A stretch of DNA of 64,000 bases from Rhodoferax sp. (GTDB lineage Bacteria; Pseudomonadota; Gammaproteobacteria; Burkholderiales; Burkholderiaceae_C), in NCBI RefSeq assembly GCF_023700745.1, contig NZ_JAMPYG010000007.1:1-64000 (forward strand), written 5' to 3'. The notes below the pieces were generated by a model. It was given only the letters and a program-made list of their open reading frames with translations. It had not been told where the DNA came from and did no database searches. Below, piece by piece: positions 42,837 through 61,119 of the stretch. Position 1 is the stretch's first letter. Each line of letters begins with the position of its first letter. A program made the translations under genes and the position numbers.

Positions 42837-43889
42837 TTATTTCAATGCAACCGGCTTGCCTGCACTGTCCTTGACCATGCCCCAGGATTTTTCGATGGTG
42901 GCGATCACGCTGTCTGGCAACGGTACGTAGTCCAGATCAGAGGCCAGCTTATCGCCGCTCTTGAACGCCCAGGTAAAGAACTTGAAAGTTTCAGTGGCCT
43001 GCGCGGGCTTGTCCTGCTGCAAGTGCATCAGGATGAAAGTAGCCGTCGAGATGGGCCAGGTAGCTTTGCCAGGCTGGTCCGTGATGAGTTGGTAGAACGA
43101 TTTGTTCCAGTCAGCACCGGCAGCTGCCGCCTTGAAGGCTTCTTCGCTGGGAGACACAAACACACCGTCTTTATTTTTCATTTGGGTGTAAGTCATTTTG
43201 TTTTGAATGACATACGAATACTCGACGTAACCAATCGAATTGGGCAGTCGATTCACAAATGCAGCCACGCCTTCGTTACCTTTGCCACCCGCACCCACTG
43301 GCCAGTTCACCGCCGTACCTTCACCCACCTTGGTCTTCCATTCCGGGTGGACGCGGCTCAGGTAGTTGGTAAAGTTGAACGTGGTGCCCGAACCGTCGGC
43401 GCGGCGCACCGGCGCGATATCTGCATCCGGCAGTGCCAATGTCGGGTTCAGTGCCTTGATGGCGGCGTCATTCCACTTGGTGATCTTGCCCAGATAGATG
43501 TCGCCCAGCACCTGTCCATCCAGTTTCATCTGGCCAGGCTGAATACCCTTGATGTTGATCACCGGCACGGTACCGCCAATCACGGTGGGAAACTGGAACT
43601 GGCCTTTGGCTTTGAGTACTTCGTCAGTCTGAGGCATGTCTGAAGCACCAAAATCAACCGTCTTGGAGTCAATTTGCTTGATGCCGGCACCAGAACCCAC
43701 AGATTGGTAGTTCACCTTGACACCGGTTTGCTTGTTGTATTCAGCCGCCCATTTGGCATAAATGGGGGCCGGAAACGTAGCACCTGCACCGGTGATGCTC
43801 TGGGCATTGGCCAGATTGCTCACAGCCGCGACGCCAAAAAACGACACGATGGTGGTTGCCAGAATCGACTTGTAAATACTTTTGTTCAT
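42837..43889 (-). CDS. pstS: Periplasmic phosphate-binding protein PstS
   Basis: 350 residues with a signal peptide ending near ANAQ (about residue 29). Ligand-binding segments GAGATFPAPIYAKW, SVGSGAGIKQI and VDFGASDMP, together with RADGSGTTFNFTNYLS, bind the phosphate dianion. It delivers phosphate to PstCA. First gene of pstSCAB-phoU-phoB-phoR; a PHO-box promoter lies 59 bases upstream (separate entry). Confidence 0.97.
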   Translation of the reverse strand: MNKSIYKSILATTIVSFFGVAAVSNLANAQSITGAGATFPAPIYAKWAAEYNKQTGVKVNYQSVGSGAGIKQIDSKTVDFGASDMPQTDEVLKAKGQFQFPTVIGGTVPVINIKGIQPGQMKLDGQVLGDIYLGKITKWNDAAIKALNPTLALPDADIAPVRRADGSGTTFNFTNYLSRVHPEWKTKVGEGTAVNWPVGAGGKGNEGVAAFVNRLPNSIGYVEYSYVIQNKMTYTQMKNKDGVFVSPSEEAFKAAAAGADWNKSFYQLITDQPGKATWPISTATFILMHLQQDKPAQATETFKFFTWAFKSGDKLASDLDYVPLPDSVIATIEKSWGMVKDSAGKPVALK

Positions 43890-43947
43890 GGGGAAATCCT
43901 TAAATTGAATGGATCAGTTGTAAAACCTTTTTGGGTCCGACACAGGT

Positions 43948-43981
43948 AATTTACGTCAATCATGTGTCAGTAATATGACAA
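43948..43981 (-). promoter_or_regulatory. PHO box and -10 of the pst-pho operon
   Basis: Minus-strand TTGTCATATTACTGACAC (43964-43981) has two 7-base half-sites 11 bases apart, matching the known CTGTCAT direct-repeat consensus. Ten bases further is TAAATT (43948-43953), a -10-like hexamer at the spacing known for PhoB-dependent promoters. A third half-site-like TTGACGT (43953-43959) continues the 11-base phase. Confidence 0.78.
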
Positions 43982-44024
43982 ATATCTGGTTTTCAGACAT
44001 CAGGGCACAACAAATTACACCTTC

Positions 44025-44042
44025 TTGTCACCCTCTTGTCAT
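44025..44042 (+). promoter_or_regulatory. PHO box upstream of the 92-residue gene and ppk2
   Basis: Plus-strand TTGTCACCCTCTTGTCAT holds two 7-base half-sites (44025-44031, 44036-44042) in 11-base phase. A TATCCT hexamer lies at 44065-44070, 22 bases downstream, further than expected unless a degenerate third half-site is used. It drives away from the pst box on the other strand. Confidence 0.65.
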
Positions 44043-44115
44043 CAAAAAATCGAGAGGGCTGGGCTATCCTAGGCAAACAAAATGACCAGGTCCACTCAAC
44101 AATTCTGGAAAACCT

Positions 44116-44394
44116 ATGCTTGCCATCAAAAAAGCCCGCAAACTCATTGAAGCCAATCCGAGCGACCCGGCAGCCCAGATCATTGCCGCACTGGTGCTCG
44201 CGCTTGAAAGCGAGACCACCATTTCTGTTTCGCAACTCTACAAGCTCGATGACAAACGTTTCGAACTGGCACTCGAAATTTTGAACGAATGGCGACTGGA
44301 CCGACATTACGCCAGCAAACTGCGCCTGCTGGACTCAAGCAGCATGGTCCAAAGCTTGGGCGAAATGGCTGCTTCTGAATCAAGGACCATCTAA
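44116..44394 (+). CDS. Small helical protein of unknown function upstream of ppk2
   Basis: 92 residues, predicted nearly all helical, no signal peptide or membrane segment, no cysteines. It begins MLAIKKARKLIEANPSDPA and contains ALVLALESETTISVSQLYKLDDKRFELALEIL. I do not recognise a domain. It follows a PHO box by 73 bases and precedes ppk2 by 52 bases in the same direction, so it is probably induced with ppk2 under phosphate limitation. A regulatory or scaffold role for PPK2 is speculation. Confidence 0.72.
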   Translation: MLAIKKARKLIEANPSDPAAQIIAALVLALESETTISVSQLYKLDDKRFELALEILNEWRLDRHYASKLRLLDSSSMVQSLGEMAASESRTI

Positions 44395-44446
44395 ACGTCT
44401 TGATTAGTCCAGGCCGTCAGAAGTCCAGTCCACCCAGGAGTTGCTG

Positions 44447-45364
44447 TTGGATTACAACGATGAAAAACTGATTCAGCGCATCCGTCGCGATCTGGCTGAC
44501 AGTTATGACGAAGAATTTGAAATGGAGCTGGAAGACCGCAATCTTGACGAAATCTTCGGCAACGGTCTGGACATCGAGTCCGAGCAGTACAGAATCAGCA
44601 GAAAGCGGTATTTCCGCGAGCTATTCAAAATGCAGGGCGAGCTGGTCAAACTGCAAGACTGGGTCGTCAAAACCGGCCAGAAGATAGTGATCCTGTTTGA
44701 AGGGCGTGATGCCGCCGGCAAGGGCGGCACCATCAAACGCATCACACAACGGTTGAATCCGCGGGTCTGCCGTGTCGCAGCCCTGCCGGCGCCCAATGCC
44801 CGCGAGCAAACCCAGTGGTACTTCCAGCGCTATGTGGCGCACCTGCCCGGTGCCGGAGAAATGGTCTTGTTCGACCGCAGTTGGTACAACCGCGCTGGCG
44901 TCGAACGGGTCATGGGGTTTTGTTCCGACGAGCAGTATGAAGAGTTTTTTCGCTCGGTGCCCGAATTTGAAAAAATGCTGGTGCGCTCCGGCATCACCTT
45001 GATCAAGTATTGGTTTTCCATTTCGGACGAGGAACAACAAATACGTTTTCTGGGACGGATTCATGATCCACTGAAACAATGGAAACTCAGCCCGATGGAC
45101 ATGGAGTCGCGCCGCCGTTGGGAGGAATACACCAAGGCCAAGGAAATCATGTTTGAGCGCACCCACATTCCGGAATCGCCCTGGTGGGTGGTGCAGGCAG
45201 ATGACAAGAAAAAAGCCCGCCTCAACTGCATTCACCACCTGTTGAACCAATTGCCATACGAGGAATTTGAACACCCGACCATCATGTTGCCGCCTCGCGT
45301 GCACAACGATGACTATGTGCGTCTGCCCGTGCCCAATGAAATTCTGGTGCCGGAAATTTATTAA
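44447..45364 (+). CDS. ppk2: Polyphosphate kinase 2
   Basis: 305-residue single-domain PPK2 (class I-like). Walker A is FEGRDAAGKGGTIKRI, and the lid/Walker B segment is VLFDRSWYNRAGVERVMGF. KYWFSISDEEQQIRFLGRIHDPLKQWKLSPMD is family-typical. It transfers phosphate between polyphosphate and nucleoside diphosphates. I choose TTG 44447 as start because AGGAG lies six bases before it; a TTG at 44441 abuts the AGGAG. Length is normal. Confidence 0.94.
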   Translation: MDYNDEKLIQRIRRDLADSYDEEFEMELEDRNLDEIFGNGLDIESEQYRISRKRYFRELFKMQGELVKLQDWVVKTGQKIVILFEGRDAAGKGGTIKRITQRLNPRVCRVAALPAPNAREQTQWYFQRYVAHLPGAGEMVLFDRSWYNRAGVERVMGFCSDEQYEEFFRSVPEFEKMLVRSGITLIKYWFSISDEEQQIRFLGRIHDPLKQWKLSPMDMESRRRWEEYTKAKEIMFERTHIPESPWWVVQADDKKKARLNCIHHLLNQLPYEEFEHPTIMLPPRVHNDDYVRLPVPNEILVPEIY

Positions 45365-45669
45365 CGACTGACATGCTGGTTTGGCTTGCGTATTGACGCA
45401 GGGCCAGAAACAGACCCGCCAGCCTTTTCAAGGGCTGGCGGTGGTGGCGGGAACCCCGGGTCAGGTTGTCAGGCAGACACGTCTGGGGACGTTCCCATCC
45501 GTCTTGATGTCACACACCAAGACTCGATCCAATTGCTTGAATCCCCCAGCTCCGTGCTCCTACGGGCTACTTTCGCATTCCGTCCAGAACACAACCCGAC
45601 TGTAATGGTGCTGGAAATCGGGGTATTGCGAATTCTCAACTCAACAGCCGATTGGCATCGGCTTGCGTT
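45365..45669. other. Intergenic region between ppk2 and a convergent gene, with one hairpin
   Basis: About 305 bases without a convincing gene. CCGCCAGCC (45416-45424) and GGCTGGCGG (45433-45441) form a perfect 9-bp stem 51 bases after ppk2, but no T run follows. A short CAGAC/GTCTG palindrome lies near 45474. No promoter is obvious; both flanking genes point into this region. Confidence 0.5.
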
Positions 45670-46293
45670 TCAGGCTTGCTGCAGTATCCTGCTCACCTCT
45701 TCGTCTTCCACCTGCTCGAAATGCTGGTAGAACTGCCCCACAGCCCGAAAAAACGCAGGTGCATCAAGGCACACCACCTCGTCTGCCAGTTCTGCCACAG
45801 TAGCCAGCGTATCGGGTGGTGCCACCGGCACGGCGCAAATCAGTTTGGCGGGCTTTTTCGCCCGTAACCCATGCAGCGCCGAAATCATGGTGGCACCAGT
45901 GGCCAGACCATCATCCACCACAATCACAATGCGCCCGCTAGGGCTGATCGGCGGACGAATCGGTGTGTACTGGGCGCGACGCTGGCGCAGGGTTGCCATC
46001 TGGGCCTGTTTTTCGGTTGCAAGATAGTCGGCCGTACCGCCATAGGCTTGTGCATATTCGGACAGATAGGTCCAGCCGCTTTCATCAACCGAACCAATGG
46101 CCAGCTCCGGCTGCTGTGGTGCACGCAGCTTGCGTACCAATACCACATCGAGTTCACCTTCGAGCTGGTCTGCGATCACTTTGGCCATGCCCACCGCGCC
46201 ACGCGGAATCCCCAGAATGAGCGGATGCTTGCCCCGGTAGTTTTTGAGTCTGTCGGCCAGTTGCCGGGCCGCGTCAAGGCGATCACGAAACAT
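45670..46293 (-). CDS. Phosphoribosyltransferase-domain protein
   Basis: 207 residues from ATG 46293, with AGGAG seven bases upstream. The PRPP-binding motif is VIVVDDGLATGATM, and LGIPRGAVGMAKVIADQL and VVLVRKLRAPQQPELAIGSV are typical of the stand-alone PRT proteins annotated as predicted phosphoribosyltransferases, whose substrate is unknown. These often lie near stress or phosphate genes. Convergent with ppk2. It is distinct from the Gpt-like enzyme at 1.4 kb. Confidence 0.85.
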   Translation of the reverse strand: MFRDRLDAARQLADRLKNYRGKHPLILGIPRGAVGMAKVIADQLEGELDVVLVRKLRAPQQPELAIGSVDESGWTYLSEYAQAYGGTADYLATEKQAQMATLRQRRAQYTPIRPPISPSGRIVIVVDDGLATGATMISALHGLRAKKPAKLICAVPVAPPDTLATVAELADEVVCLDAPAFFRAVGQFYQHFEQVEDEEVSRILQQA

Positions 46294-46472
46294 GTTGCAT
46301 CTCCTGAGAAATTCAAAAACACACTGTGCCGCCATTCAGTTTCCCTGACTGGGTTCAACGCGCACTTGATGATTCGCAAGGCGAAGGGAGGATGTTTTTG
46401 CGTCATGCCCCAAAAGGGCTGAACCATGCGGGCTGTCAATGATTCATCGAAGATGGCCGTGCGTCGGCACTT
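46294..46472. other. Gap upstream of the phosphoribosyltransferase
   Basis: I see no gene here; with the uncertain 57-codon frame that follows, the gap to phoX exceeds 500 bases. The only element is the AGGAG site for the gene starting at 46293. Confidence 0.4.
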
Positions 46473-46646
46473 TCATTCCATCGCAGCGCGCAACTCTTGA
46501 GATGTGGCACCCAGACGACGAATGCCCATCCGTGCAAGTTCCTTCATGAAGCCGAGTGCCGCCTCGGGATACGCGCCAGACCAGGCGTTGAAAATCTCCC
46601 ATTGCAGCGTGCTCACCAGAGAAGGGGAGTTGGAAACTGAAGTCAC
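46473..46646 (-). CDS. Possible 57-residue protein
   Basis: A frame from GTG 46646 to TGA 46473 encodes MTSVSNSPSLVSTLQ, then EIFNAWSGAYPEAALGFM and a basic amphipathic helix ending in ATSQELRAAME. The composition looks protein-like and partly phasin-like. GAGGT sits only one base from the GTG, so the ribosome-binding site is poor. A TATAAG hexamer at 46664-46669 (minus) could be a -10. It lies divergently from phoX beside the PHO-box array. An alternative frame here (46444-46662) looks less natural. Confidence 0.33.
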   Translation of the reverse strand: MTSVSNSPSLVSTLQWEIFNAWSGAYPEAALGFMKELARMGIRRLGATSQELRAAME

Positions 46647-46668
46647 ACCTCAATGTTGCCAACCTTAT

Positions 46669-46736
46669 ATGTCACGAATGTGTCACAGAGAGAAAACTGT
46701 CACCAAATCATCATTCATTTTTCATGCAAGCGTCAC
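46669..46736 (+). promoter_or_regulatory. PHO-box array upstream of phoX
   Basis: ATGTCAC (46669) and GTGTCAC (46680) form one 11-base-phased pair. A second phased series starts at 46697 with CTGTCAC, followed by TCATCAT (46708), TTTTCAT (46719) and GCGTCAC (46730). All share the TCAT/TCAC end of the PHO half-site. No convincing -10 follows (CATTAA at 46744 is weak). The phoX ATG is 62 bases after the last unit. Confidence 0.65.
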
Positions 46737-46798
46737 AGTGCCTCATTAAGCTTGCAGCGCGATCATGTCGTCGCAACGAAATACCCAGGAACACCCCA

Positions 46799-49009
46799 AT
46801 GACCCAAAAATTTGATTTCAACGACGAGAACTCCAATACCAGCAACAACCCGAGCTTCGACTCAGTCCTGCAAGCGCGCTTGAGCCGCCGTGGCGTACTG
46901 CGGGGCAGCGTCGGTACCGTGATGCTCGCCAGCGTGGGCCTGAGCGCCTGCGGTGGCAGTGACGATGCCGTGGCCGCACCGACCGCGCCCTCCTCCACGC
47001 TGCTGGGGTTCACTGCCGTGTCCAAGAGCCTGACCGACGCCGTGCTGGTGCCCGCCGGCTACACCGCCAGCGTGATTTACGCCCTGGGTGACCCACTGAC
47101 AGTCAGCACGGCCGCCTACAAGAACGACGGCACCGACACCGACTATGAAAACCGCGCCGGCGACCACCACGACGGCATGGAATGGTTTGGCCTGGACGCC
47201 TCCGGCAAGCCGTCGCTGACGGCCACCGACCGTGGCCTGCTGGCGGTGAACCACGAAGCCACCACCGACGAGAAGCTCAGCTCCTTCTTTCTGCACGCCA
47301 ACGGCGGCACCAGCACGCTGCCACGCCCGGCGGCTGAAGTGGACAAGGAAACGGCCATTCACGGCATCTCGGTGGTCGAAGTCAAAAACACCAGCAGCAA
47401 GTGGGCCACAGTGCCAAGCTCGGCCTTCAACTTCCGCCTGACCTGCCTGAGCGAAGGCATCCAGCTCAACGGTCCGGCCCGTGGCAATGCCCTGATGGTC
47501 ACCAAGCACTCGACCGACGGCACCAAGACCCGCGGCACGCTGAACAACTGCGGCACCGGCAAGACGCCCTGGGGTACCTTTTTGACCGGCGAAGAGAACT
47601 GGGCGGGTTACTTCACCCGCAGTGCCACCGACGACACGACGCGCGGTGGTGCCACGACGAAAAGCGTAGTCGCGCTCAAGCGTTATGGCCGCAATGCAGG
47701 TTCGGGCAGCCGCCATGGCTGGGAAACCGGTGGCAGCGACGACAAGTACGCGCGCTGGGACATCAGCCAGGGCACAGGCACAGCCACCGACGACTACCGC
47801 AACGAACTGAACACCTTCGGCTACATCGTCGAGATCGACGCCTACGACAAGACCAAGACCGCCCGCAAGCGCACCGCGCTGGGCCGCTTCGCGCACGAGA
47901 GCGCCGCCTTCGGCAAGCCGGTGGTCGGCCAGCCGCTCGCCGTCTACATGGGTGACGACTCGCGCGGCGAGTACATCTACAAGTTCGTGTCCACCAAGAC
48001 CTGGGCCACAGCCGACGCCAACCCCACCGACCGTATCACCACCGGCGACACCTATCTGGACGACGGCAAGCTCTACGCGGCCAAGTTCAACAGCGACGGC
48101 ACGGGCAATTGGATCGAATTGACCACCAGCAACCCGCTGATCTCGGGCTACGCCAGCTATGCATTTGCCGACCAGGCCGATGTGTGCGTGAACACGCGCC
48201 TGGCCGCCGACGCGGTGGGTGCGACCAAAATGGACCGCCCCGAGTGGTGCTCCACCAACGTGGCCAACGGCGAGATCTATTTCACGCTGACCAACAACAG
48301 CAACCGCCGTGTCGAACCCACTGGCAGCCAGTTCGCAGTCGACAGCGCCAACCCGCGTGTCTACAGTGACATCAAGAACGGCAGCAGCACGCAAACTGGT
48401 AATCCGAATGGCCATGTGCTGCGCATGAAAGAAGGCGCAGCTGGCAATGCCGCCACCAGTTTCAGCTGGGACGTGTACGTGTTCGGCGCCGAGTCCAGCG
48501 CGGCACCGGGCACCGTCAATCTGTCCAGCCTGACCGACGACCAGGATTTCTCCAGCCCCGACGGTCTGGTGTTCAGCCCAGCCACCGGCATCATGTGGAT
48601 CCAGACCGACGACGGCGCCTACACCGATGTCACCAACTGCATGATGCTGGCCGCCCTGCCCGGCAGCGTGGGCGATGGCGCCAAGAAGACGCTGAGCTAC
48701 ACCAAGGCCGACAAGAGCATCTTGACCGTGGACACTTTTGTTGGCAAGACCCCCGGCGACGACAAGCTCAAGCGTTTCCTGGTCGGCCCCGTTGGCTGCG
48801 AGATCACCGGCCTGTGCGAAACCCCCGACGGCAAGGCGATCTTCGTCAACATCCAGCACCCGGGCGAAACGACCGCCATGGCCAATATTGCCGACCCGAC
48901 CAAGTACACCAGCCAGTGGCCCAGCAACGCCGGTTACGGCGCTGGCAAGCGCCCGCGCTCGGCCACCATCGTCATCACCAAGAACGACGGCGGAAAAATC
49001 GGTACCTGA
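46799..49009 (+). CDS. phoX: PhoX-family alkaline phosphatase (DUF839)
   Basis: 736 residues from ATG 46799 with AGGA nine bases upstream. A Tat signal with SRRGVLRG (Arg 30-31) leads into LSACGG, a lipobox-like Cys at 51, so export by Tat with lipid anchoring is possible. The PhoX core has NNCGTGKTPWGTFLTGEENW, YMGDDSRGEYIYKF, SPDGLVFSPATGIMWIQTDDG and CETPDGKAIFVNIQHPGE. The family hydrolyses phosphate esters using iron and calcium. GC content is visibly higher than in neighbouring genes. It has a PHO-box array upstream and a terminator downstream. Confidence 0.93.
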   Translation: MTQKFDFNDENSNTSNNPSFDSVLQARLSRRGVLRGSVGTVMLASVGLSACGGSDDAVAAPTAPSSTLLGFTAVSKSLTDAVLVPAGYTASVIYALGDPLTVSTAAYKNDGTDTDYENRAGDHHDGMEWFGLDASGKPSLTATDRGLLAVNHEATTDEKLSSFFLHANGGTSTLPRPAAEVDKETAIHGISVVEVKNTSSKWATVPSSAFNFRLTCLSEGIQLNGPARGNALMVTKHSTDGTKTRGTLNNCGTGKTPWGTFLTGEENWAGYFTRSATDDTTRGGATTKSVVALKRYGRNAGSGSRHGWETGGSDDKYARWDISQGTGTATDDYRNELNTFGYIVEIDAYDKTKTARKRTALGRFAHESAAFGKPVVGQPLAVYMGDDSRGEYIYKFVSTKTWATADANPTDRITTGDTYLDDGKLYAAKFNSDGTGNWIELTTSNPLISGYASYAFADQADVCVNTRLAADAVGATKMDRPEWCSTNVANGEIYFTLTNNSNRRVEPTGSQFAVDSANPRVYSDIKNGSSTQTGNPNGHVLRMKEGAAGNAATSFSWDVYVFGAESSAAPGTVNLSSLTDDQDFSSPDGLVFSPATGIMWIQTDDGAYTDVTNCMMLAALPGSVGDGAKKTLSYTKADKSILTVDTFVGKTPGDDKLKRFLVGPVGCEITGLCETPDGKAIFVNIQHPGETTAMANIADPTKYTSQWPSNAGYGAGKRPRSATIVITKNDGGKIGT

Positions 49010-49061
49010 TGCGTTGACAACTCAGCAGATAACTCGAAGTTGATCGCGGCCCTGCCGCTTT

Positions 49062-49092
49062 GCCCGGCCCCTGCAAGGGGACCGGGCTTTTT
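49062..49092 (+). terminator. Rho-independent terminator after phoX
   Basis: GCCCGG-CCCC and GGGG-A-CCGGGC (49062-49087) form a strong stem with loop TGCAA and one bulged A, followed by TTTTTATTTT. The T run overlaps the last codon of the convergent gene ending at 49091. Confidence 0.85.
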
Positions 49093-49873
49093 ATTTTGAA
49101 CGAGCGCCACGGGCTTTCATCTTCTTGCCAGCATCACCCTCAGCAGCCTTTTTGGCGTTGACTTGTTTTGCTTTATCGCAGTGATCCAGGCACAGCAAGG
49201 TATCGGTATAAGACGTAAACCGGTTGAGGTAATCGGGCGAGATGTCGCGCATCAACGTCAATGAGCGCAACACCAGCATGTGCGAATTGATTGGCCCAGG
49301 ATTTTTTGGCGCCTGGTCCAGTGCGTTGGCCACCTGCTTGTCAACGCTGAGCTTTGACCAGGTATTGCGGAAATAATGCATGGTTTTCAGCTCGGGGGGC
49401 GCTCCGGACGTCGCGTTGAAACCACCCGCCAGACCGGTGTCGACATGGCCGGGAGCCTGTTGCGCAAGATGTCGAAGCAAATCGCCCAAAGTGGCACCCG
49501 GCACACCGGCGTTCAGGCTCACGATGGCTCGGTGCACACCCTTGAAATCGCCGTTGGCAAAGCGCCGCTGCAGATCGGCGACGGCCTGCGGGTTTTGCGG
49601 CGCCGTGCGCGCGATGGCATCCTCTGCCGCGCCTTGTGCTGCATCGAAACGTGCGCGAAAAGCGCCCAGCGCCTGCGCCAGTTTGTCGTCAAGCAGACGT
49701 TTCACCGGACCCGGTTGGGCGTTTGCGCGATCAGCCAGCACTTGCAGGTAATGCAGGCCGACGGGATCAAACTGGTCTGCACCTGCCAGGCGCAAGACAG
49801 CGATCTGGCGACTCCCCTCCCCCGGCTGACCAAACAGCGCATCCGGTGGGCCGCTCTGGTCAACGACAGTCAT
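49091..49873 (-). CDS. DUF2894-like protein, last gene of the DUF802/OmpA cassette
   Basis: 260 residues, no signal peptide or membrane helix, mostly helical, with a strongly basic Lys/Ala-rich C-terminus. DFKGVHRAIVSLNAG, MHYFRNTWSKLSVDKQVANAL and GPINSHMLVLRSLTLMRDISPDYLNRF look family-like; I identify it as DUF2894 by memory of the cluster order, not by search. No enzymatic motif is visible. Its ATG overlaps the OmpA-gene stop (ATGA), so it is coupled to the membrane pair. Likely cytoplasmic; function unknown. Confidence 0.7.
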   Translation of the reverse strand: MTVVDQSGPPDALFGQPGEGSRQIAVLRLAGADQFDPVGLHYLQVLADRANAQPGPVKRLLDDKLAQALGAFRARFDAAQGAAEDAIARTAPQNPQAVADLQRRFANGDFKGVHRAIVSLNAGVPGATLGDLLRHLAQQAPGHVDTGLAGGFNATSGAPPELKTMHYFRNTWSKLSVDKQVANALDQAPKNPGPINSHMLVLRSLTLMRDISPDYLNRFTSYTDTLLCLDHCDKAKQVNAKKAAEGDAGKKMKARGARSK

Positions 49874-50508
49874 GGCACGGCATTTTTCAAATTGGCAGCT
49901 TTGGGCACCGGCGCCATTTCAACGCGCCGGTTTTGCGCCCGCGCCGCATCGTTGCTATTGGGGGTGACCGGCTGCTCGGCACCAAATGCCGCCGCAAAGA
50001 CCATGGACGAAGGCATGCCTTCGTCAATCAAAGTGCGCGTGACAGTCAGTGCACGCTGGGCTGACAACTCCCAGTTGTCAACAAAACGGGGATTGCCATC
50101 GCGTATCGACCGGTCATCGGTGAAGCCGCTCACCATCAGCAGTTCATCGCGCGATGCCAGATAGGCCCGCAGTGGGGTGACCAGGCTGTTGAGCAGCTCC
50201 CGGCCCTCCGGCTGCAACTGGTCGGAATTCAACGAGAACAGGACGCGGCCACTGATGCCAATGCGCCCGTTGTTGAGCGTGATCCGGCCCGTGGCCAGCG
50301 GAATCGCCAATGCTTTTTCAAGCGTCATGCGGCGCTGCTCTTCGAGCTGGCGTTTCTGGATCTCGGCTTCGAGGTGGGTTGCGAGTTCCAGCTGAACGCC
50401 CAATACGCCCACCAGAATCAGCACAAAAGCCCCCAGCAAACCCGACATCAGGTCGCCAAAAACGGCCCAAACCGGCGCGGTTTGCTCGATGCCGTCACGC
50501 TCGTCCAT
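49870..50508 (-). CDS. OmpA/MotB-like membrane protein
   Basis: 212 residues. One membrane helix at about 16-38 contains an aspartate at its start (FGDLMSGLLGAFVLILVGVLG, D19), as in MotB, TolR and ZorB ion-conducting helices. A helical linker (44-70) and an OmpA peptidoglycan-binding domain (about 85-200) follow. This domain has SGFTDDRSI, NWELSAQRALTVTRTL and AQNRRVE, the residues that hold diaminopimelate. It overlaps DUF802 (TGATG) and DUF2894. It is therefore likely the cell-wall-anchoring stator partner of the DUF802 protein. Confidence 0.82.
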   Translation of the reverse strand: MDERDGIEQTAPVWAVFGDLMSGLLGAFVLILVGVLGVQLELATHLEAEIQKRQLEEQRRMTLEKALAIPLATGRITLNNGRIGISGRVLFSLNSDQLQPEGRELLNSLVTPLRAYLASRDELLMVSGFTDDRSIRDGNPRFVDNWELSAQRALTVTRTLIDEGMPSSMVFAAAFGAEQPVTPNSNDAARAQNRRVEMAPVPKAANLKNAVP

Positions 50509-52478
50509 CAGATCACCTCTTCGGCGGACAGCGCCTGCCTGGCCGGGAACTGGCGCAGTTCTTCAAAAATCTCTTTTTGCGACATGAGGCTCAGGTCGAT
50601 GATTTCGCGCGCCTGAGCCACGTAGTAGGCCAGTTGGTCGTCACTTCTGGCCATGGATTTGTCCAGTGCACCCTCAATGCGTTGCAGATTGCCAATCAGT
50701 TTCTCATTGGCCTCATTGAACGATTTCACGGCAAAACCGAAGGTTTCACCCAGACTTGCAACTTCGATCGCGCTGCTGGTGACCTCAGCCGCATTGCGGG
50801 TGACGTGGGTGGCAATGTCGGCGAGCCTGGCGGCTTCTGTGCCGACCTGCTCGGCAAACTGGCTGCCGGTATGCTTAAGCGCCACCGCGGCAGAGGCGAC
50901 TAGCGCGTCGATGGCTGCGCGCTGCTCAACAGACGCCTGATGGGTCGCGTCAAGCAATACATTGAGCGTGGCCATGATGCGGCTGCGTTCTGCCAGCTGT
51001 TCTTTGTCGCGCGCAATACTGTTCGACATTTCCTGGCGCATTTGCCCAATGACGTCGGCCGCGGCGCGTGGCGCCTCTGACGCGATTTCAATGAGTCGTG
51101 TGATCGGGTCTTCCAGCGCACAACCCAACGTTGTCAAATGGTGGGTCAGCGCAGTTTGCAAGTCGCCCAGGCGTTCAACCGCCGCCTTTCCCCGCTGCTC
51201 TTCCTGCTCTCTGAGCGCGCCGAACTCGTGGTGCAACAGGCTGACACCGGCCTGCGCCTGCTCTGAAATTTGCTGCGCTGTGCTGGCCAGCGTGGTGCAG
51301 ACAAGCTGCTGCTGCGCATGTGTCTGCACACCAGCCTGCTGCCATTCGCGCTGAAGCGTCGCGGCCATGGTTTCCAGCGATTCCATCCACGTCGCCTGCC
51401 GTTGTTGATCCCGCAATGCCTGGTCGGCTTGCAGGCTGGCGCTGGCCTTTTCGTGGCTGGCGAGCGCCGCTGTCCACATCTCTGTGACGGTGGCAACCGT
51501 CACCCCAAGCTTGGCAGAAAGCCCGTCAAGTTGCATTTGCGCGGTATCGGTCATGCGCTGGTGCTGCAAGCTTGCTTCCTGTGCCATGCCCGTCATGGCG
51601 GCTTCGAATACCGGTTTGATGCCCTCTGCGGCGAGCTGGGCACTTTGCGTCAGGCTGGCTCTGAGCGATTGGTCCACGGATGCGGCCAGACCGGTATAAA
51701 CATCTTTGACTTCATTTTGAAAACTGATCTGGTTGCTGAGCAAACGGTCGTTCACCTGCTGGCTCAGCCGTTCCATCTGCACCATCATCGCCTGCAATTG
51801 ATCAACCACCACAGGCAGGGCCCGGGCCTGGGACTGCAGCGCTTGGTAGGCTTCCTGGCGCTGATGGGTGAGCGAAAAGCCGCGCAACACCGTGGCAATT
51901 CTGGTATCGAGCCGTTGTGCCGCCAGCATTCTTTCGCGCCGGCTGATGGCAGACATCAGGCCCAGCATGGCCGACGCCGCAACGCCTGCCACCGAGGTTC
52001 CAAAGGCCAGCCCCAGCCCCTTGATCGGTGCCGCCAGCGCAGCGCGGATCGCCTGAAGATCGGTGGTTCCTTCGAGGGAAAAGGCAGCACCGTTGAGGCT
52101 GACGACCATGCCCAGAAAAGTGCCCAGCATCCCCAGCATCACCAGCAGCCCCACCAGATAGGGCGTGAGCGCAGGACCGGGCAAGCCGATGCGCTCGCCT
52201 TCTATGCGCAGGCGCACGGGGTTCTGGAGCGAGGGATGCACCTTGTCAAGCCAGTCACCCAGGTTCGACAACGGCTCAGGAATCGCAGCCAGCGCCGCAG
52301 ACAAGGTCGAAGTGGCCTGTCGAAACTGGCGTAACTCGTGCGCGCCGAAGCCATAAACCGCGGCAATGATGGCCGTCATCACCAGCGCCAGGCCAGGGGA
52401 GTTGACAAACCCGGCGCCGACCCAGACGACCGCCATCGCGCCCAGCAAAAAGGCCCCCGTGAACAGATTTTTATACAT
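50508..52478 (-). CDS. DUF802 protein: MotA/ZorA-like membrane domain with long coiled tail
   Basis: 656 residues. Membrane helices at about 5-23 and 27-46, then 103-130 and 152-178. Helices three and four carry the MotA/TolQ/ExbB/ZorA signature: LLVMLGMLGTFLGMVVSL and IKGLGLAFGTSVAGVAASAML. Residues 185-640 are predicted to be continuous coiled coil, rich in Ala/Gln/Glu/Arg, with no catalytic motif. This is the ZorA plan (proton-channel core plus long cytoplasmic tail). Its stop overlaps the OmpA-type gene. An ion-driven, wall-anchored motor or force transducer is inferred; a chemoreceptor is unlikely because no HAMP or signalling tip is seen. Confidence 0.8.
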   Translation of the reverse strand: MYKNLFTGAFLLGAMAVVWVGAGFVNSPGLALVMTAIIAAVYGFGAHELRQFRQATSTLSAALAAIPEPLSNLGDWLDKVHPSLQNPVRLRIEGERIGLPGPALTPYLVGLLVMLGMLGTFLGMVVSLNGAAFSLEGTTDLQAIRAALAAPIKGLGLAFGTSVAGVAASAMLGLMSAISRRERMLAAQRLDTRIATVLRGFSLTHQRQEAYQALQSQARALPVVVDQLQAMMVQMERLSQQVNDRLLSNQISFQNEVKDVYTGLAASVDQSLRASLTQSAQLAAEGIKPVFEAAMTGMAQEASLQHQRMTDTAQMQLDGLSAKLGVTVATVTEMWTAALASHEKASASLQADQALRDQQRQATWMESLETMAATLQREWQQAGVQTHAQQQLVCTTLASTAQQISEQAQAGVSLLHHEFGALREQEEQRGKAAVERLGDLQTALTHHLTTLGCALEDPITRLIEIASEAPRAAADVIGQMRQEMSNSIARDKEQLAERSRIMATLNVLLDATHQASVEQRAAIDALVASAAVALKHTGSQFAEQVGTEAARLADIATHVTRNAAEVTSSAIEVASLGETFGFAVKSFNEANEKLIGNLQRIEGALDKSMARSDDQLAYYVAQAREIIDLSLMSQKEIFEELRQFPARQALSAEEVI

Positions 52479-53259
52479 TGATATGGTGTTGTGTCGTGGT
52501 TGAATTCAGGTTGAAGGCTTCAATGAGCCCCAGGGTCGGTTGCAAGCGAACGTCCAATTCTGCGAGCAGCACAGTCTGCAGCTCTTGCCCAAAGCCAGCC
52601 AGCCAACCAGCGGGTTGCATCTGCGCGCCGGGTTTGCCGGCTTGCAGCGTTTCCACCAACGCCTGCTGATGTGCGCTGCGCAATTGATGGAAGCGTTTTT
52701 CGAGCAGCGCGGGGATGGTCGAGAACAATTTGCTCTCGCGTTCACTCAGGATGGCGTCAAGTGCGGCATCCAGTGTCGCGAGCTTGCGGAGCGCGGGCGA
52801 TGACTGACCCAGCACCTCCCGCACATGGATCCGCAATGGACGCACCTTCAATTCGATGTCGCGTTGCTGTGCAAGATAGTTTCGGCGATACGGTTTATAA
52901 GTCGTGGCGTCTTCCATGTCAGCGCCAGGTTCTGGTGACGGCGGCTCCATGCGGGTCCGGTCCGCATCGAACAAGCCACACCTGGTGATTGAATTCACCA
53001 GGTTTGCCCGCACCCGGGCGTAGGCTTCGCTCAGGGCCAAGCGGCAAGCGGACTGGGCACCAGCGGGCGTGTCTGGCAGGCTTGCGGTGCTTGCGTTGTG
53101 CACCGCAGACAGGGCAATGGCGTCGGTAAATTTCACCCACAGGCCCAGCTTTTCAGCAAAATCGCCGTCCGGCGCGCGCCCATCCACCACAGCCAGGTCG
53201 GCGAGAACACGGACAAGTCTTGAGCTATGGAAGTTGGTGCGGGTCAGGGCTCGCATCAT
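52471..53259 (-). CDS. DUF3348-like protein, first gene of the cassette
   Basis: 262 residues, soluble, mostly helical. It begins MMRALTRTNFHSSRLVRVLADL and includes YRRNYLAQQRDIELKVRPLRIHVREVL. No signal peptide, membrane helix or catalytic motif. I assign DUF3348 from N-terminal resemblance and cluster order, without a search. The 3' end overlaps DUF802 by eight bases. A weak ribosome-binding site precedes the paired ATG codons. Function unknown; possibly a cytoplasmic adaptor of the membrane pair. Confidence 0.7.
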   Translation of the reverse strand: MMRALTRTNFHSSRLVRVLADLAVVDGRAPDGDFAEKLGLWVKFTDAIALSAVHNASTASLPDTPAGAQSACRLALSEAYARVRANLVNSITRCGLFDADRTRMEPPSPEPGADMEDATTYKPYRRNYLAQQRDIELKVRPLRIHVREVLGQSSPALRKLATLDAALDAILSERESKLFSTIPALLEKRFHQLRSAHQQALVETLQAGKPGAQMQPAGWLAGFGQELQTVLLAELDVRLQPTLGLIEAFNLNSTTTQHHINV

Positions 53260-53615
53260 GGCGTGGTGTGATTCAAATCGAAAAAACAGGGATCGGGGAA
53301 CTGCAAGCTCACCCCGTTATCTGCACATACGCTTGCTTCAGACAGTTGCGAGCCCGTCTGAACCACTTCGTGCGGAAACGGAATTCAAAAAGTCAACATT
53401 GGCTGCCAGCTCGTACCGGATGTCCGATAGCTACCGGACCGGGGATGGGCGTTGTTGAATGAATCGACATCCAGCGCAGCACCGGGGAACCTGCATGGTG
53501 CGGCCGAATTTTACCGCCAGAAAGCAATCGCCGTTCCCCGGTGGGCGATGTCCGTCCGATGGTATTTGGGATTCCTTTCGGGGTGGGCGGCTGTCTTAAA
53601 CTCCAGCCCTCCATC
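53260..53615. other. Divergent intergenic region with an inverted repeat
   Basis: About 355 bases between the divergent DUF3348 gene and the transporter. CACCGGGGAAC (53480-53490) and GTTCCCCGGTG (53533-53543) are perfect 11-base inverted arms 42 bases apart. TACCGGA occurs twice nearby (around 53416 and 53431). No gene and no clear promoter hexamers are seen; it must hold both promoters. The arms could be a regulator operator pair or a remnant of a short repeat element. Confidence 0.5.
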
Positions 53616-54929
53616 ATGTCACTTTTTTCCCAACAAGCCCTCCAGCCCGGCGTGCGCAAGCGCGAGGTCTTTGGCTGGGCGATGTACGACTTTGCCAACT
53701 CGGGCTACACCACGGTGGTCATCACGGCGGTGTTTGCCGCCTATTTTGTTGGCGGCGTGGCACAGGGTGCGACCTGGGCCACACTGGCCTGGACGGCTGC
53801 GCTCAGCCTGTCCAATGCCATCGTCATGCTCACCATGCCCAGCCTGGGCGCCTACGCCGACCTGCGTGCGGCCAAAAAGCGCCTGCTGGCCCTGTTCACG
53901 GCGGGCTGTGTGCTGGCCACGGCTGCGCTGGCGTTGGTCGGGCCCGGCAGCGTGGTGCTGGCGCTGGTGCTGATCGTGGTGTCCAACACCTTTTACGCCT
54001 GGGGTGAATCGATGACCGCCGCGTTTCTGCCGGAACTGGCGCGCACCGAGTCGCTGGGCAAGGTCAGCGGCTGGGGCTGGGGTTTTGGCTACTTTGGCGG
54101 CATGCTGGCGCTCGGCCTGTGTCTGGCTTATGTGCTCTGGGCGCAAGACCAGGGGCAACCCGCCTCACAATTTGTGCCGGTCACCATGCTGATCACAGCC
54201 GCCCTGTACGGTTCGGCCGCGCTGGTCACCTTTGCCCTGCTCAAGGAGCGGGCACAAGCCAACCCGACGGCGCTGGGACAAGGCGGCTTCAGGGCCGCCC
54301 TGAAACAGCTGCAACACACTTTTCATCAGGCCCGGCAATTCAGGGATTTCATGTGGCTGCTGGTCTGCGCGGTGTGTTACCAGGCCGGCGTGGCGGTGGC
54401 GATTGCGCTGGCCGCCATTTATGCCGAGCAGGTGATTGGATTCAAACAGCAGGAAACCATGGCATTGATCTTTGTGCTCAACCTGGCCGCGGCGGCGGGG
54501 GCCTTCGCCTGGGGTTACCTGCAGGACCGCATCGGCCACAAGATTGCGCTGGCCAGCACATTGCTGGGCTGGATTGCCACCTGCGTCATCGCCGCCCTGG
54601 CCACCACCAAGGGTGATTTCTGGTACGCCGCGGTCATTGCCGGCCTATGCATGGGCAGCAGCCAGTCGGCCGGGCGCGCCATGGCAGGCCTGTTTGCACC
54701 GCAACGTCAAGTGGCCGAGTTTTATGGCCTGTGGACCTTTGCCATCCGGCTCGCCAGCATCGTCGGCCCCTTGAGCTACGGCCTCATCACCTGGGCCACC
54801 GATGGTAACCAGCGCGCTGCCATCCTCAGCACCTCGGTGCTGTTTGTGCTCGGATTGTTGCTGCTGATGCCGGTGAACATGCAACGCGGACGTGCGGCGG
54901 CATTACAAGTCGATTCGACCCGTCTTTAA
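53616..54929 (+). CDS. UMF1-family MFS transporter
   Basis: 437 residues from ATG 53616 (MSLFSQQALQPGVRKREVFGW); a longer frame from 53541 is not family-like. About 12 membrane helices. The N-terminal GWAMYDFANSGYTTVVITAVFAAYF motif is diagnostic for the UMF1 (Atg22-like) group. The substrate is unknown for bacteria. It precedes sixA by 24 bases. Confidence 0.88.
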   Translation: MSLFSQQALQPGVRKREVFGWAMYDFANSGYTTVVITAVFAAYFVGGVAQGATWATLAWTAALSLSNAIVMLTMPSLGAYADLRAAKKRLLALFTAGCVLATAALALVGPGSVVLALVLIVVSNTFYAWGESMTAAFLPELARTESLGKVSGWGWGFGYFGGMLALGLCLAYVLWAQDQGQPASQFVPVTMLITAALYGSAALVTFALLKERAQANPTALGQGGFRAALKQLQHTFHQARQFRDFMWLLVCAVCYQAGVAVAIALAAIYAEQVIGFKQQETMALIFVLNLAAAAGAFAWGYLQDRIGHKIALASTLLGWIATCVIAALATTKGDFWYAAVIAGLCMGSSQSAGRAMAGLFAPQRQVAEFYGLWTFAIRLASIVGPLSYGLITWATDGNQRAAILSTSVLFVLGLLLLMPVNMQRGRAAALQVDSTRL

Positions 54930-54953
54930 ACTGTCATCTTGGGCCACTAAAGT

Positions 54954-55421
54954 ATGGCGATGGACCTGATTTTGTGGCGCCATGCAGAGGCGCAGGAATG
55001 GACACCAGGCTGTGATGACATGGCCCGGCGCCTGACCTCGCGCGGCGAAAAACAGGCGGCACGCATGGCCGGCTGGCTGGACCGCCAGTTGCCTGACAAC
55101 ACCCGCATCCTGGTCAGCCCGGCGCGCCGCGCCGAGCAAACCGCCAGCGCCCTGGATCGAAAATTCAAGGTCCGGTCTGAATTGGCACCGGGTGGCACGG
55201 TGGCGCAATTGCTGGAGATGGCGCAATGGCCAGACGCCAAGGGATGCGTGCTGGTGGTGGGGCATCAACCCACCCTGGGCCAAACCATTGCCCAGTTGAT
55301 CGGGTTGAGCGTCACCGAATGCACGGTCAGAAAAAGCGCGGTCTGGTGGCTGCGTCACCGCCAGCGGGAAACCCTCGTGCAGACCCTGGTGGTCACCGTG
55401 CAATCACCCGAAGTGCTTTGA
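54954..55421 (+). CDS. sixA: Histidine phosphatase SixA-like
   Basis: 155 residues of the histidine-phosphatase superfamily. Catalytic RHAEA with His at about residue 10; second His in VVGHQPTLG at about 104; an Arg in SPARRAEQT. SixA dephosphorylates phospho-histidine on HPt or PTS proteins. Its position before an atypical pyruvate kinase and ppx suggests phosphate-related control, but the target cannot be read. A single CTGTCAT lies just upstream, not a full PHO box. Confidence 0.88.
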   Translation: MAMDLILWRHAEAQEWTPGCDDMARRLTSRGEKQAARMAGWLDRQLPDNTRILVSPARRAEQTASALDRKFKVRSELAPGGTVAQLLEMAQWPDAKGCVLVVGHQPTLGQTIAQLIGLSVTECTVRKSAVWWLRHRQRETLVQTLVVTVQSPEVL

Positions 55422-55471
55422 AGCCGTCCAGCGGGTGCATGTCAAGACAAGGCTGGCCTGTGCTGCAGCAG

Positions 55472-55505
55472 TTTTCATGACATTGTCACGATTGGCATTT
55501 ACAAA
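55472..55505 (+). promoter_or_regulatory. PHO box and -10 upstream of the pyruvate kinase-like gene
   Basis: TTTTCATGACATTGTCAC (55472-55489) has two half-sites 11 bases apart. Exactly ten bases later TACAAA (55500-55505) is a good -10. The ATG at 55512 is only six bases after the -10, so the transcript would be leaderless or the translation start lies downstream. Confidence 0.7.
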
Positions 55506-55511
55506 TGCCAC

Positions 55512-57506
55512 ATGCGCTCCCCATCTCCTACCCCGAAAACCGCTCCGAGCCTTGGCACGCCACCCGTTGCGAAAGATGGCACTTCCCCGGACCTTGCGCT
55601 CTGCCTGAAGCTCATCGACCAGCTTGGGGCACTGCGCCAGGGCATGCTGGGCCGGGAACAGGCCATGGCTGAGGAACTCGCAAAGGTTCGGCCCGAATAC
55701 CGTGACAGTGCCCGCAACCTGATTCACTACCTGACACTGCGTCAGGTGGATATACGTCCGCAACAGGAACAACTTGCCTGGCTGGGCCTGTCGTCCCTCG
55801 GGCGTTCCGGTTCCCATGTCCTGGCCAACCTGGACAAAGTGCTTGGCTTGCTGCACCGGCTCACGAACCAGCCCTGGCAGGACACCGTGGCAGAAGAACC
55901 CGCCAGCAGCCGGGAACTTCTTAAAAAACACACGTTCAACCTACTGGGGCAGGTGCCTGCCAATCGGCCGGTACGCATCATGGTCACCCTGCCCACCGAG
56001 GCAGCGACTGATCTCAACATGGTGCGCGATCTGGTGGACGCCGGCATGGACATAGCCAGGATCAATTGTTCGCACGACAGCGCCACTGACTGGCAGCGCA
56101 TGGCTGCCAACGTGCGTCGGGCCGCGAGGGCGGCACAGCGTCCCGTCAAGCTGCTGATGGATCTGGGCGGCCCCAAAATCAGGACCGGGCAACTTGCCGG
56201 TCGGCCACCGGTATTGAAACTGAAACCGGGCAAGGACGAACTGGGGCGCGTCTATCGCCCGGCCCGCCTGCACCTGCGCCCCATCAACAGCGCCGAACTG
56301 ATGCCGGAGACAGATGCCAGCATTGGCGTCTGGGATGTCTGGCTGGCACGCCTGAAGCTCGGCACCAGCATCAATTTTTCCGATGCCCGGGGTGCCAAAC
56401 GCCACCTTCTGGTGATCCAGAACAATGAAAAAGGGGCGGTTGCAGAGAGCCTGCAAACCGCGTACCTGACACCGGAAACCACCCTCACGATCGGTGGCAC
56501 GGGCGGCAAGAAAAAGCATTCCACCCTGGTTTGCCAGATCAACAGCCAGCCCGGCGCCCTGCTGCTGCGTGCCGGCGACAGCTTGCGACTGACGAAAGAA
56601 GCAACCGGTACAACAGAAGCGCTTGAAGACGACAGCGCCGAGCCACGTCCAGAGATGGCGCAGGTGGCGGTGACCTTGCCCCAGGTGATAGACCAGGTCA
56701 AGGTAGGCGAACGCATCTGGTTTGACGATGGCCGTATTGGCGGCGTGATTCGCCACAAGGCCGATGCCTGGATTGATATCGAGATCACCCAGGCCCGTCC
56801 GGAGGGCGAAAAACTCGGCGGTGACAAAAGCATCAACCTGCCCGACAGCCAGCTGAATTTACCAGCGCTCAGCGCCAAGGACATTGAGGATTTGACGACG
56901 GTGGCGGCAGAAGCCGATATGGTGGGCCTGTCATTTGTCCAAAAACCCGATGACATTGCGCTGTTGCGCGACCATTTGCAGCGCTTGGGCCGGCAAGACA
57001 TGGGCATTGTGCTGAAGATCGAAACCCTGCAGGGTTTTGAAAATCTGCCCGAGCTCATGTTGTCTGCCATGGCGTCCCGGCTGGCGGGGATCATGATTGC
57101 GCGCGGCGATCTGGCCGTCGAATGTGGCTATGAGCGCCTGGCTGAAGTGCAGGAAGAAATCCTGTGCTGCGCGGAAACCGCCCATATGCCCGTGATCTGG
57201 ACCACCCAAGTTCTGGAATTCATGGCCAAGACCGGCTTGCCGTCACGGGCCGAAATCTCGGATGCCGGACTGGGTGTGCGCGTCGAATGCGTCATGCTCA
57301 ATAAGGGCCCGTACATTATCCAGGCCATTCGCGCACTTGATGACATCCTGAAACGCATGGTGGATCATCAGGCCAAAAAGCGCCCGCTGCTGCGAGCGCT
57401 GAGAGCCTGGGGTAGCGCCGGCAACATGGCTTCTGATGCTATGCTGGCAGCTTTGAAAACATTGAACGACGACCATGCAAAACACAACGCGTCTGGCAGC
57501 TGTTGA
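55512..57506 (+). CDS. Atypical pyruvate kinase-like enzyme
   Basis: 664 residues. An N-terminal extension of about 150 residues has no domain I recognise. The barrel starts near RIMVTLPTEAATDL, with DAGMDIARINCSH, MDLGGPKIRTG, VLKIETLQGFENLPELM (catalytic Lys), IMIARGDLAVE, WTTQVLE and SRAEISDA. The classical DTKGPEIRT lysine position is Gly here. The domain between the barrel halves is enlarged, and the C-terminal allosteric domain of normal pyruvate kinases is missing. Such long forms are annotated as pyruvate kinase but may differ in substrate or direction. It overlaps ppx by 32 bases and has a PHO box. Confidence 0.78.
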   Translation: MRSPSPTPKTAPSLGTPPVAKDGTSPDLALCLKLIDQLGALRQGMLGREQAMAEELAKVRPEYRDSARNLIHYLTLRQVDIRPQQEQLAWLGLSSLGRSGSHVLANLDKVLGLLHRLTNQPWQDTVAEEPASSRELLKKHTFNLLGQVPANRPVRIMVTLPTEAATDLNMVRDLVDAGMDIARINCSHDSATDWQRMAANVRRAARAAQRPVKLLMDLGGPKIRTGQLAGRPPVLKLKPGKDELGRVYRPARLHLRPINSAELMPETDASIGVWDVWLARLKLGTSINFSDARGAKRHLLVIQNNEKGAVAESLQTAYLTPETTLTIGGTGGKKKHSTLVCQINSQPGALLLRAGDSLRLTKEATGTTEALEDDSAEPRPEMAQVAVTLPQVIDQVKVGERIWFDDGRIGGVIRHKADAWIDIEITQARPEGEKLGGDKSINLPDSQLNLPALSAKDIEDLTTVAAEADMVGLSFVQKPDDIALLRDHLQRLGRQDMGIVLKIETLQGFENLPELMLSAMASRLAGIMIARGDLAVECGYERLAEVQEEILCCAETAHMPVIWTTQVLEFMAKTGLPSRAEISDAGLGVRVECVMLNKGPYIIQAIRALDDILKRMVDHQAKKRPLLRALRAWGSAGNMASDAMLAALKTLNDDHAKHNASGSC

Positions 57507-58968
57507 CCTCGGTTCCAACAGCTTCAGACTGGAAATTGGACGCATTGAACACGGCCAGTTTTACCGTACTGAATACCTCAAGGAAACCGTGCGTCAGGGC
57601 AATGGCCTGGACGACAACCGCAACCTGACATTGCAGGCGATGCAGCGCGGCTGGGACTGCCTGGCGCGCTTTGGCGAGCGCCTGGCAGGGTTTACCGAAA
57701 GTGAAGTGTGTGCCGTGGCCACCCAAACCCTGCGCGAGGCGCGCAACCGCGACGAATTCCTCGCCACCGGCATGCAAAAACTGGGCTTCCCGATCGACGT
57801 CATTTCGGGCCGTGAAGAGGCCCGGCTGATCTACCAGGGCGTGGCCCAGGCGCTGCCGCGCACGCAGGAGCGCCGTCTGGTGATTGACATTGGCGGGCGC
57901 TCCACCGAGATCATTCTGGGCCAGGGTCGAGAGCCCTTGCAGATGGAGTCCTACCGGGTCGGCAGCATTGCCTGGTCGATGCGTTATTTTGCCGACGGCC
58001 TGTTTACCAGACGCGCCTTCCAGACCGCCGAAATTGCCGCCAAGGCGGTGCTGGATGAAGCGCTGACCCTGTATACCCCCGACCAATGGGACATGGCTTA
58101 CGGCTCGGCCGGCACCATCAACGCCGTGGCCGACGTGCTGGTGGCGGCAGGCTGGCCCGCAGGATCGGTCACGCGCGAAGGCCTCGACTGGCTGCAGGAC
58201 AAACTGCTGGCAGCGCAAAGCACCGACCGCCTGCGCCTGGCAGGCATGCGCGACGACCGCAAACCCATCATCGGCGGAGGTCTGAGCGTACTGCGGGCAC
58301 TGTTCGATCTGCTCGGCATTGAGCGGCTGGAACAGGCCAGCGGCGGCTTGCGCCACGGGCTGCTGCAGGAGATGCTGGGCTCTGGCCAGCAGCAACACAC
58401 TGATTTGCGCGACCATGCCGTGGAGCGCCTGGCCGCCAAATTTGGGGCCGATCCGGTGCACGGCAATCGGGTTGGCCGCATTGCCAATGCACTGTTCCGG
58501 CAAATCACCGGTGGCGCCGTCAATGAGCGCGTCAGCCGCAAACTCACCTGGGCAGCCCAACTGCACGAAATTGGCGGCCACATTTCACACAGCGATTACC
58601 ACAAGCACGGTGCCTACATCCTGGACAACACCGATGTCATGGGCTTTGCACTCACCGAATTGCACAGGCTCAGCCTGCTGGTGCTGGGGCACCGTGGCAA
58701 ACTGCGCAAACTGGATACCGATTTTGAAGACCAGATGTTCATCCAGCAACTCTTGACGCTGCGCCTGGCGGTCGCGCTGTGCCATGCCCGGCGCGACCCG
58801 GACCTGACGGGCATCAGCCTGCGCCAGGATGCCAGGAATGTCCGTCAATTTGTCCTCACGGTACGCAGCAACTGGGCCGGCCTATTTCCGCAATCCGCCT
58901 ATTTACTCAACGAGGAATGCGTGGCCTGGCAAAAAACCCCATGGTCATTGCGCGTGCTTGAAGACTGA
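57475..58968 (+). CDS. ppx: Exopolyphosphatase (Ppx/GppA)
   Basis: 497 residues of the actin-like ASKHA fold. Phosphate-binding loops AAVDLGSNSFRLEIGRI and LVIDIGGRSTEIILGQG (usually GGGST; here GGRST) are visible, along with ISGREEARLIYQGV with the catalytic Glu. The C-terminal HD-like domain has HEIGGHISHSDYHKHGAY. It hydrolyses terminal phosphates of polyphosphate or pppGpp. It overlaps the upstream gene by 32 bases and converges with ppk1, overlapping it by 24 bases. Confidence 0.94.
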   Translation: MQNTTRLAAVDLGSNSFRLEIGRIEHGQFYRTEYLKETVRQGNGLDDNRNLTLQAMQRGWDCLARFGERLAGFTESEVCAVATQTLREARNRDEFLATGMQKLGFPIDVISGREEARLIYQGVAQALPRTQERRLVIDIGGRSTEIILGQGREPLQMESYRVGSIAWSMRYFADGLFTRRAFQTAEIAAKAVLDEALTLYTPDQWDMAYGSAGTINAVADVLVAAGWPAGSVTREGLDWLQDKLLAAQSTDRLRLAGMRDDRKPIIGGGLSVLRALFDLLGIERLEQASGGLRHGLLQEMLGSGQQQHTDLRDHAVERLAAKFGADPVHGNRVGRIANALFRQITGGAVNERVSRKLTWAAQLHEIGGHISHSDYHKHGAYILDNTDVMGFALTELHRLSLLVLGHRGKLRKLDTDFEDQMFIQQLLTLRLAVALCHARRDPDLTGISLRQDARNVRQFVLTVRSNWAGLFPQSAYLLNEECVAWQKTPWSLRVLED

Positions 58969-61047: not shown

Positions 61048-61085
61048 GATCAGCTGCACCAATTTTTTTGAAGACGATTGTTTCA

Positions 61086-61119
61086 ATTATTTGTTGGTTT
61101 CATGACAGTGTCGTGACAA
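61086..61119 (-). promoter_or_regulatory. PHO box and -10 of ppk1
   Basis: Minus-strand TTGTCACGACACTGTCAT (61102-61119) has a perfect CTGTCAT second half-site in 11-base phase. Ten bases on is AATAAT (61086-61091), five of six to the -10 consensus. The ppk1 ATG is 39 bases further. This is the best PHO-type promoter in the window. Confidence 0.8.

Follow-up and report, generated by a model that had tools for sequence, protein, structure and literature searches.

The window analysed here is the whole stretch of 64,000 nucleotides at the beginning of contig NZ_JAMPYG010000007.1 of Rhodoferax sp. (assembly GCF_023700745.1), and its element of interest is a cassette of four minus-strand genes located between a phoX gene and a gene of the major facilitator superfamily (MFS), with the gene content of a Zorya type III anti-phage system. 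The genes, in the order in which they are read, are the following:

52471..53259, minus strand: first gene of the cassette, DUF3348 family, 262 amino acids (aa) (Pfam PF11828, 241.6 bits; PADLOC ZorG3, 248 bits, E 2.5e-74).
50508..52478, minus strand: type III zorA, a MotA/TolQ/ExbB-like subunit with a long helical tail, 656 aa (PADLOC ZorA3, 833 bits, E 5.1e-251).
49870..50508, minus strand: type III zorB, MotB-like, with one membrane helix carrying D19 and an OmpA-type domain, 212 aa (PADLOC ZorB3, 369 bits, E 1.5e-111; Pfam OmpA, 63 bits).
49091..49873, minus strand: last gene of the cassette, DUF2894 family, 260 aa (Pfam PF11445, 181.2 bits; PADLOC ZorF3, 214 bits, E 7.2e-64).

Successive genes overlap by 8, 1 and 4 bases and all four frames are open, as described in the original prediction, in which the two central proteins were recognised as a MotA-like and MotB-like pair. 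The channel-helix motif and long tail of ZorA and the D19 of ZorB, also pointed out there, are all present. The DUF802 label given to ZorA was found to be borderline, with a Pfam score of 20.9 bits, below the cut-off of 22.6, over residues 320-353 only; several close relatives carry this name in their records.

All four proteins of the cassette matched the PADLOC models of Zorya type III with high scores, and the DUF3348 and DUF2894 genes stand on either side of zorAB, the gene arrangement by which this type is recognised. Zorya type III was named in 2021 for a zor pair with a DUF3348 gene and a DUF2894 gene on its two sides, with 6,401 instances, and a type III system of Stenotrophomonas nitritireducens conferred phage protection when placed in Escherichia coli (Payne et al. 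2021, PMC8565338). As judged from these matches, the window cassette is a complete Zorya type III system, of a known kind, and the earlier view of it as an undescribed machine had to be given up, the type having been both named and tested against phage in 2021. It shares with the systems of Payne et al. the same four families and the flanking position of DUF3348 and DUF2894, and differs in belonging to another species and another site. A ZorA protein recorded under Rhodoferax sp. (P0242) is 98% identical to the window ZorA. It is highly probable that the cassette is a Zorya type III anti-phage system with an ion-driven ZorAB motor in a Rhodoferax-like host, phage defence by the window copy being an activity predicted by analogy.

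The names of the two partner proteins clash between sources. DUF3348 is ZorF and DUF2894 is ZorG in the 2021 paper and in a 2025 paper, and PADLOC-DB 2.0.0 reverses them (DUF2894 as ZorF3, DUF3348 as ZorG3). The family names are used here.

Neither ZorC, ZorD nor ZorE was detected by PADLOC among the nine proteins flanking the cassette, and the gene set of types I or II was not found. The lack of ZorC and ZorD, already noted in the original prediction, is the rule for type III and was expected, because this type has none of the three effectors.

The motor pair was compared with solved structures. A profile of 23 ZorA sequences searched against the PDB had type I ZorA (8vvn_C) as its top match, through the channel helices (E 1.1e-4); the single window sequence gave no ZorA match in the PDB. 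The first 60 residues of ZorB aligned with 8vvn_B without gaps across the helix, placing D19 on D24, a residue crucial for type I defence (PMC11890865). D19 was invariant in 60 of 60 ZorB proteins, together with T130, D131, R152, N193, R194 and R195 of the OmpA domain, which agrees with the proposed ion-driven, wall-anchored pair of Zor/Mot type. Thr/Ser positions of the motor core were also kept, a feature that is not decisive between proton and sodium.

Types I and II, like the window system, have a MotA-like ZorA with a long tail and a ZorB with a membrane Asp and a wall-binding domain, and need both ZorB wall binding and the ZorA tail (PMC11890865); they have ZorCD or ZorE in addition, which the window cassette lacks among its flanking proteins. 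Wall binding in types I and II needs a His (H186, H141; PMC11890865), whereas the His position of the GHTD motif, mapped by eye without an alignment, is apparently Phe in 44 and Tyr in 16 of the 60 type III ZorB proteins. A 5:2 ZorA:ZorB assembly is known from the solved type I and II complexes (PMC11890865; PDB 8VVN, 8VVI) and would be expected by homology in the window system, in which the pair may likewise rotate. Flagellar MotAB and TolQR/ExbBD are, by homology, the same sort of ion-driven membrane unit; unlike them, the window system has a long cytoplasmic tail with a conserved tip and the DUF3348 and DUF2894 partners. The equivalog model for the window ZorB, NCBIfam NF006547 (366.8 bits, cut-off 194), is still titled 'hypothetical protein'.

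The association of DUF3348 and DUF2894 with the pair, proposed earlier from this one locus, was supported by the co-occurrence of the families. A set of 61 loci, fetched through ZorA or DUF3348, contained ZorA in 61, ZorB in 60, DUF2894 in 60 and DUF3348 in 58; all misses fell in four loci cut by contig ends, and the 57 uncut loci had all four genes in the same order. Eight of the 20 Rhodoferax loci fetched (L100-L119) entered this set. Those left out were L102, L106, L107, L110, L111, L113, L115 and L116, treated as the same contig as another locus, L101, L117 and L119, cut by contig ends, and L112, omitted by oversight with all four genes present. L027 and L028, contigs from a single strain, were counted separately. 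Among the loci found through DUF3348, ZorA adjoined it in 53 of 55, and two weak DUF3348 matches (L006, L007) had no ZorA beside them.

A count that is free of the choice of loci was obtained from phylum samples of 398 genomes, for which the genome lists of both scans agree. DUF2894 was matched in 22 genomes, DUF3348 in 20 and both in 19, each of these 19 having the two genes on a single contig and the same strand; the four one-sided matches were weak (E 7e-5 to 1e-3).

The tail of ZorA was variable in its middle and well conserved over its last 95 residues, with many columns above 0.9 among 57 sequences. The conserved tip in the window is the following:

50511..50795, minus strand: tip of the ZorA tail, residues 562-656, with YYVAQARE at 618-625, delimited by column conservation in 57 ZorA proteins.

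Tail length was taken as the number of residues separating the channel and tip motifs, measurable in 174 of 177 ZorA proteins (57 from the loci and 120 others, some of them identical); the tip anchor was missing in L100 and L124, where the ZorA frame is broken or ends differently, and in P0295. The distance ranged from 361 to 1031 residues, with 41 distinct values. ZorA as a whole reaches 1229 residues in two other genera (L120-L145), the longest in the Rhodoferax loci having 868.

The 41 values had a common period of 3.64 residues (R 0.71), a fit reached by none of 3,000 random sets, and the 28 values below 700 gave 3.645 (R 0.81), the best of all periods from 2.2 to 8. The heptad period of 3.5 yielded R of only 0.15 and 0.20. 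In these statistics the unique lengths share descent, and the null consisted of random lengths over the same range; a first count of pairwise gaps repeats shared events many times and was not used as a test. The mean hydropathy spectrum over ZorA tails peaked at 3.67, and that of the window tail at 3.59, slightly above the top of 300 shuffles, which were computed on a coarser grid. Against a whole-turn reading, the group of long tails taken alone was not significant (n = 13, p 0.23; n = 12 in another set, p 0.62). The sole control, a loop of DUF3348, was not periodic (p 0.97), but offered just 10 unique values from 25 proteins.

Length differences between ZorA relatives thus tend to be whole turns of a helix that is almost straight. 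Whole-turn changes in length occur in coiled coils generally; the rule for the ZorA tail is new here, and one literature search returned no earlier description of it for ZorA. Steps of whole turns suggest a continuous helical shaft, and the tail may be an uninterrupted helical rod that preserves the angle of the tip relative to the motor.

The two partner proteins were characterised from their sequences and predicted structures. The best 19-residue hydropathy mean in five members was 0.56-0.99 for DUF2894, indicating no membrane helix, and 0.78-1.72 for DUF3348, where the 1.72 of a single member exceeds the customary limit of 1.6; ZorB, for comparison, gave 2.37-2.56 in five members. DUF3348 is thus probably also devoid of a membrane helix. 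The window DUF2894 protein is basic (isoelectric point 9.5), with 10 K/R within its last 35 residues, and a basic tail was present in the five members compared (8-10 K/R per last 35 residues). The predicted structure of DUF3348 is helical (mean predicted local distance difference test score 75), and no confident or informative fold match was obtained with the structure models of the partners. No nuclease or helicase motif was seen by eye in the conserved columns of DUF3348 and DUF2894, and neither protein matched a nuclease or helicase family of Pfam. The authors of the 2021 paper proposed that both partner proteins regulate ZorAB (PMC8565338). The accessible literature on type III Zorya and its families yielded no worked-out mode of action, most subscription journals being outside reach. 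The most likely placement of DUF3348 and DUF2894 would be a putative docking at the conserved ZorA tip, which is held with evenly balanced confidence.

A mechanism may be proposed on this basis. Five ZorA and two ZorB subunits are expected to form an ion-driven motor in the inner membrane, in which ZorB would bind the cell wall and provide D19 as the aspartate of the ion path. Upon disturbance of the envelope by a phage, ZorA would be turned or twisted by ion flow, its long helical tail would pass the motion into the cytoplasm, and DUF3348 and DUF2894 would there make or control the output. A stronger version, in which the shaft is register-locked, whole-turn steps keep the motor-tip angle, and the near-invariant tip hands torque or twist on to a non-nuclease DUF3348/DUF2894 output, the whole being in some genera of the order a core chromosomal trait and no transient defence gene, is offered tentatively and is rather doubtful.

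The site of the cassette was compared with relatives in which phoX and the MFS gene are adjacent, and two features were delimited:

49099..53586, strand not assigned: segment of about 4.5 kb missing at the empty site of two relatives (L082, L083), with ends uncertain by about 10 bases.
49063..49098, plus strand: GC-rich hairpin and T run after phoX, recognised by eye, common to the empty-site relatives in the flank alignments and not listed by the pattern scan.

The DUF2894 stop codon (49091-49093) falls inside this T run. L082 belongs to a genome without a DUF3348 match, and L083 to one with DUF3348 on another contig. The site between phoX and the MFS gene changes often, since two other relatives, L084 (2412-4931) and L087 (2981-5281), carry another gene there, some 2 to 2.4 kb long, which in one of the two resembles PhoX by eye, and phoX is missing between matched flanks in L086. 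No integrase-like open reading frame (ORF) was seen in the segment 49099-53586. The window contained no tRNA, 48900-53700 gave no match to Rfam, and base composition showed no clear step. Neighbours differ among loci, no family being common to more than 3 of 36 loci (265 neighbour proteins; besides the window, these loci come from Rhodoferax and from other genera, and the flanks of some are short). The differing neighbourhoods and the empty site lead us to infer that the cassette was gained at many sites.

The neighbourhood in the window (42837-61086) includes a PBP-like solute-binding protein, PPK2 and PhoX, followed by a protein of the histidine phosphatase family, Ppx/GppA and PPK1. A link of the cassette to phosphate or polyphosphate housekeeping was considered and rejected, given the differing neighbours and the empty-site relatives, which keep phoX and the MFS gene.

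With respect to distribution, DUF3348 was found in 21 of 89 Rhodoferax genomes (15 of 50 good ones), 68 of 250 genomes of the family (loci at this level being those of the best 30 matches) and, for the order, 7 of 150, with two weak matches that lack ZorA among the seven. Another genus of the order had it in 41 of 43 genomes and in all 40 good ones, and a third genus in 6 of 6. Twenty loci from the 41/43 genus contained all four genes, with a broken ZorA frame in L124, and two flanking ORF families recurred in 15 and 14 of these loci, some of them perhaps being frames opposite a real gene.

Several observations weigh against a defence system with this motor. Core status and recurring neighbours, as in that other genus, are unusual for defence. 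PADLOC at 1e-5 matched none of the nine flanking proteins (42837-61086), so that no defence island was detected. DUF3348 had no match in 50,697 phage records and was not confirmed in viral contigs; among 72,556 plasmid records it was present in 27, for the most part large replicons from relatives of Burkholderia. The window ZorA scored below the cut-off of the NCBIfam ZorA model (28.5 of 100 bits), and DUF2894 alone was matched in one of 14 control genomes (Corynebacterium glutamicum), DUF3348 in none. In Burkholderia cenocepacia, with Zorya III among the predicted systems, CRISPR interference against the predicted defence systems left host fitness against one phage unchanged in every case, although expression of the first one or two Zorya III genes was altered (PMC12584637).

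The core status, the recurring neighbours and the scarcity in mobile elements would fit the alternative that the same machine has as its main job a standing envelope function, such as wall-stress sensing or upkeep, to which phage protection would be incidental or a later addition; type III Zorya is, moreover, described as highly conserved in Ralstonia solanacearum (PMC13064858). The patchy occurrence in Rhodoferax, the empty site, the differing neighbours and the protection of E. coli by one type III system (PMC8565338) argue against it, and it is considered improbable for the window; the core status elsewhere and the conservation in Ralstonia would be compatible with a standing role beside defence. 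A silent or decaying copy is very improbable: a simple scan found no sigma-70-like promoter, but the same scan averages just 0.8 in shuffled sequence, so that zero says little (promoters and terminators together were no more frequent than in shuffles), and the four open frames and tight overlaps argue against decay. Least probable of all is a conventional energiser of the Mot, Tol or Exb kind beside two hypothetical genes. The ZorB protein does have matches to MotB and to further OmpA-type families, but it scores 369 bits with ZorB3 against at most 78.5 with motility stator (MotB-type) models among the best 25 matches (for example 78.5 of 259 required), the ZorA profile has type I ZorA as its top PDB match, and the four-gene unit is fixed.

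The Zorya type III system preferred here is itself known, and what this locus chiefly adds is one clean case for which the empty site can also be seen. Among the Zorya types, it is type III that lacks a recognised nuclease, and the conserved tip and whole-turn rule of ZorA indicate where and how its output could be probed. The contrast between core presence in one genus and accessory presence in Rhodoferax would make the question of defence or housekeeping testable.

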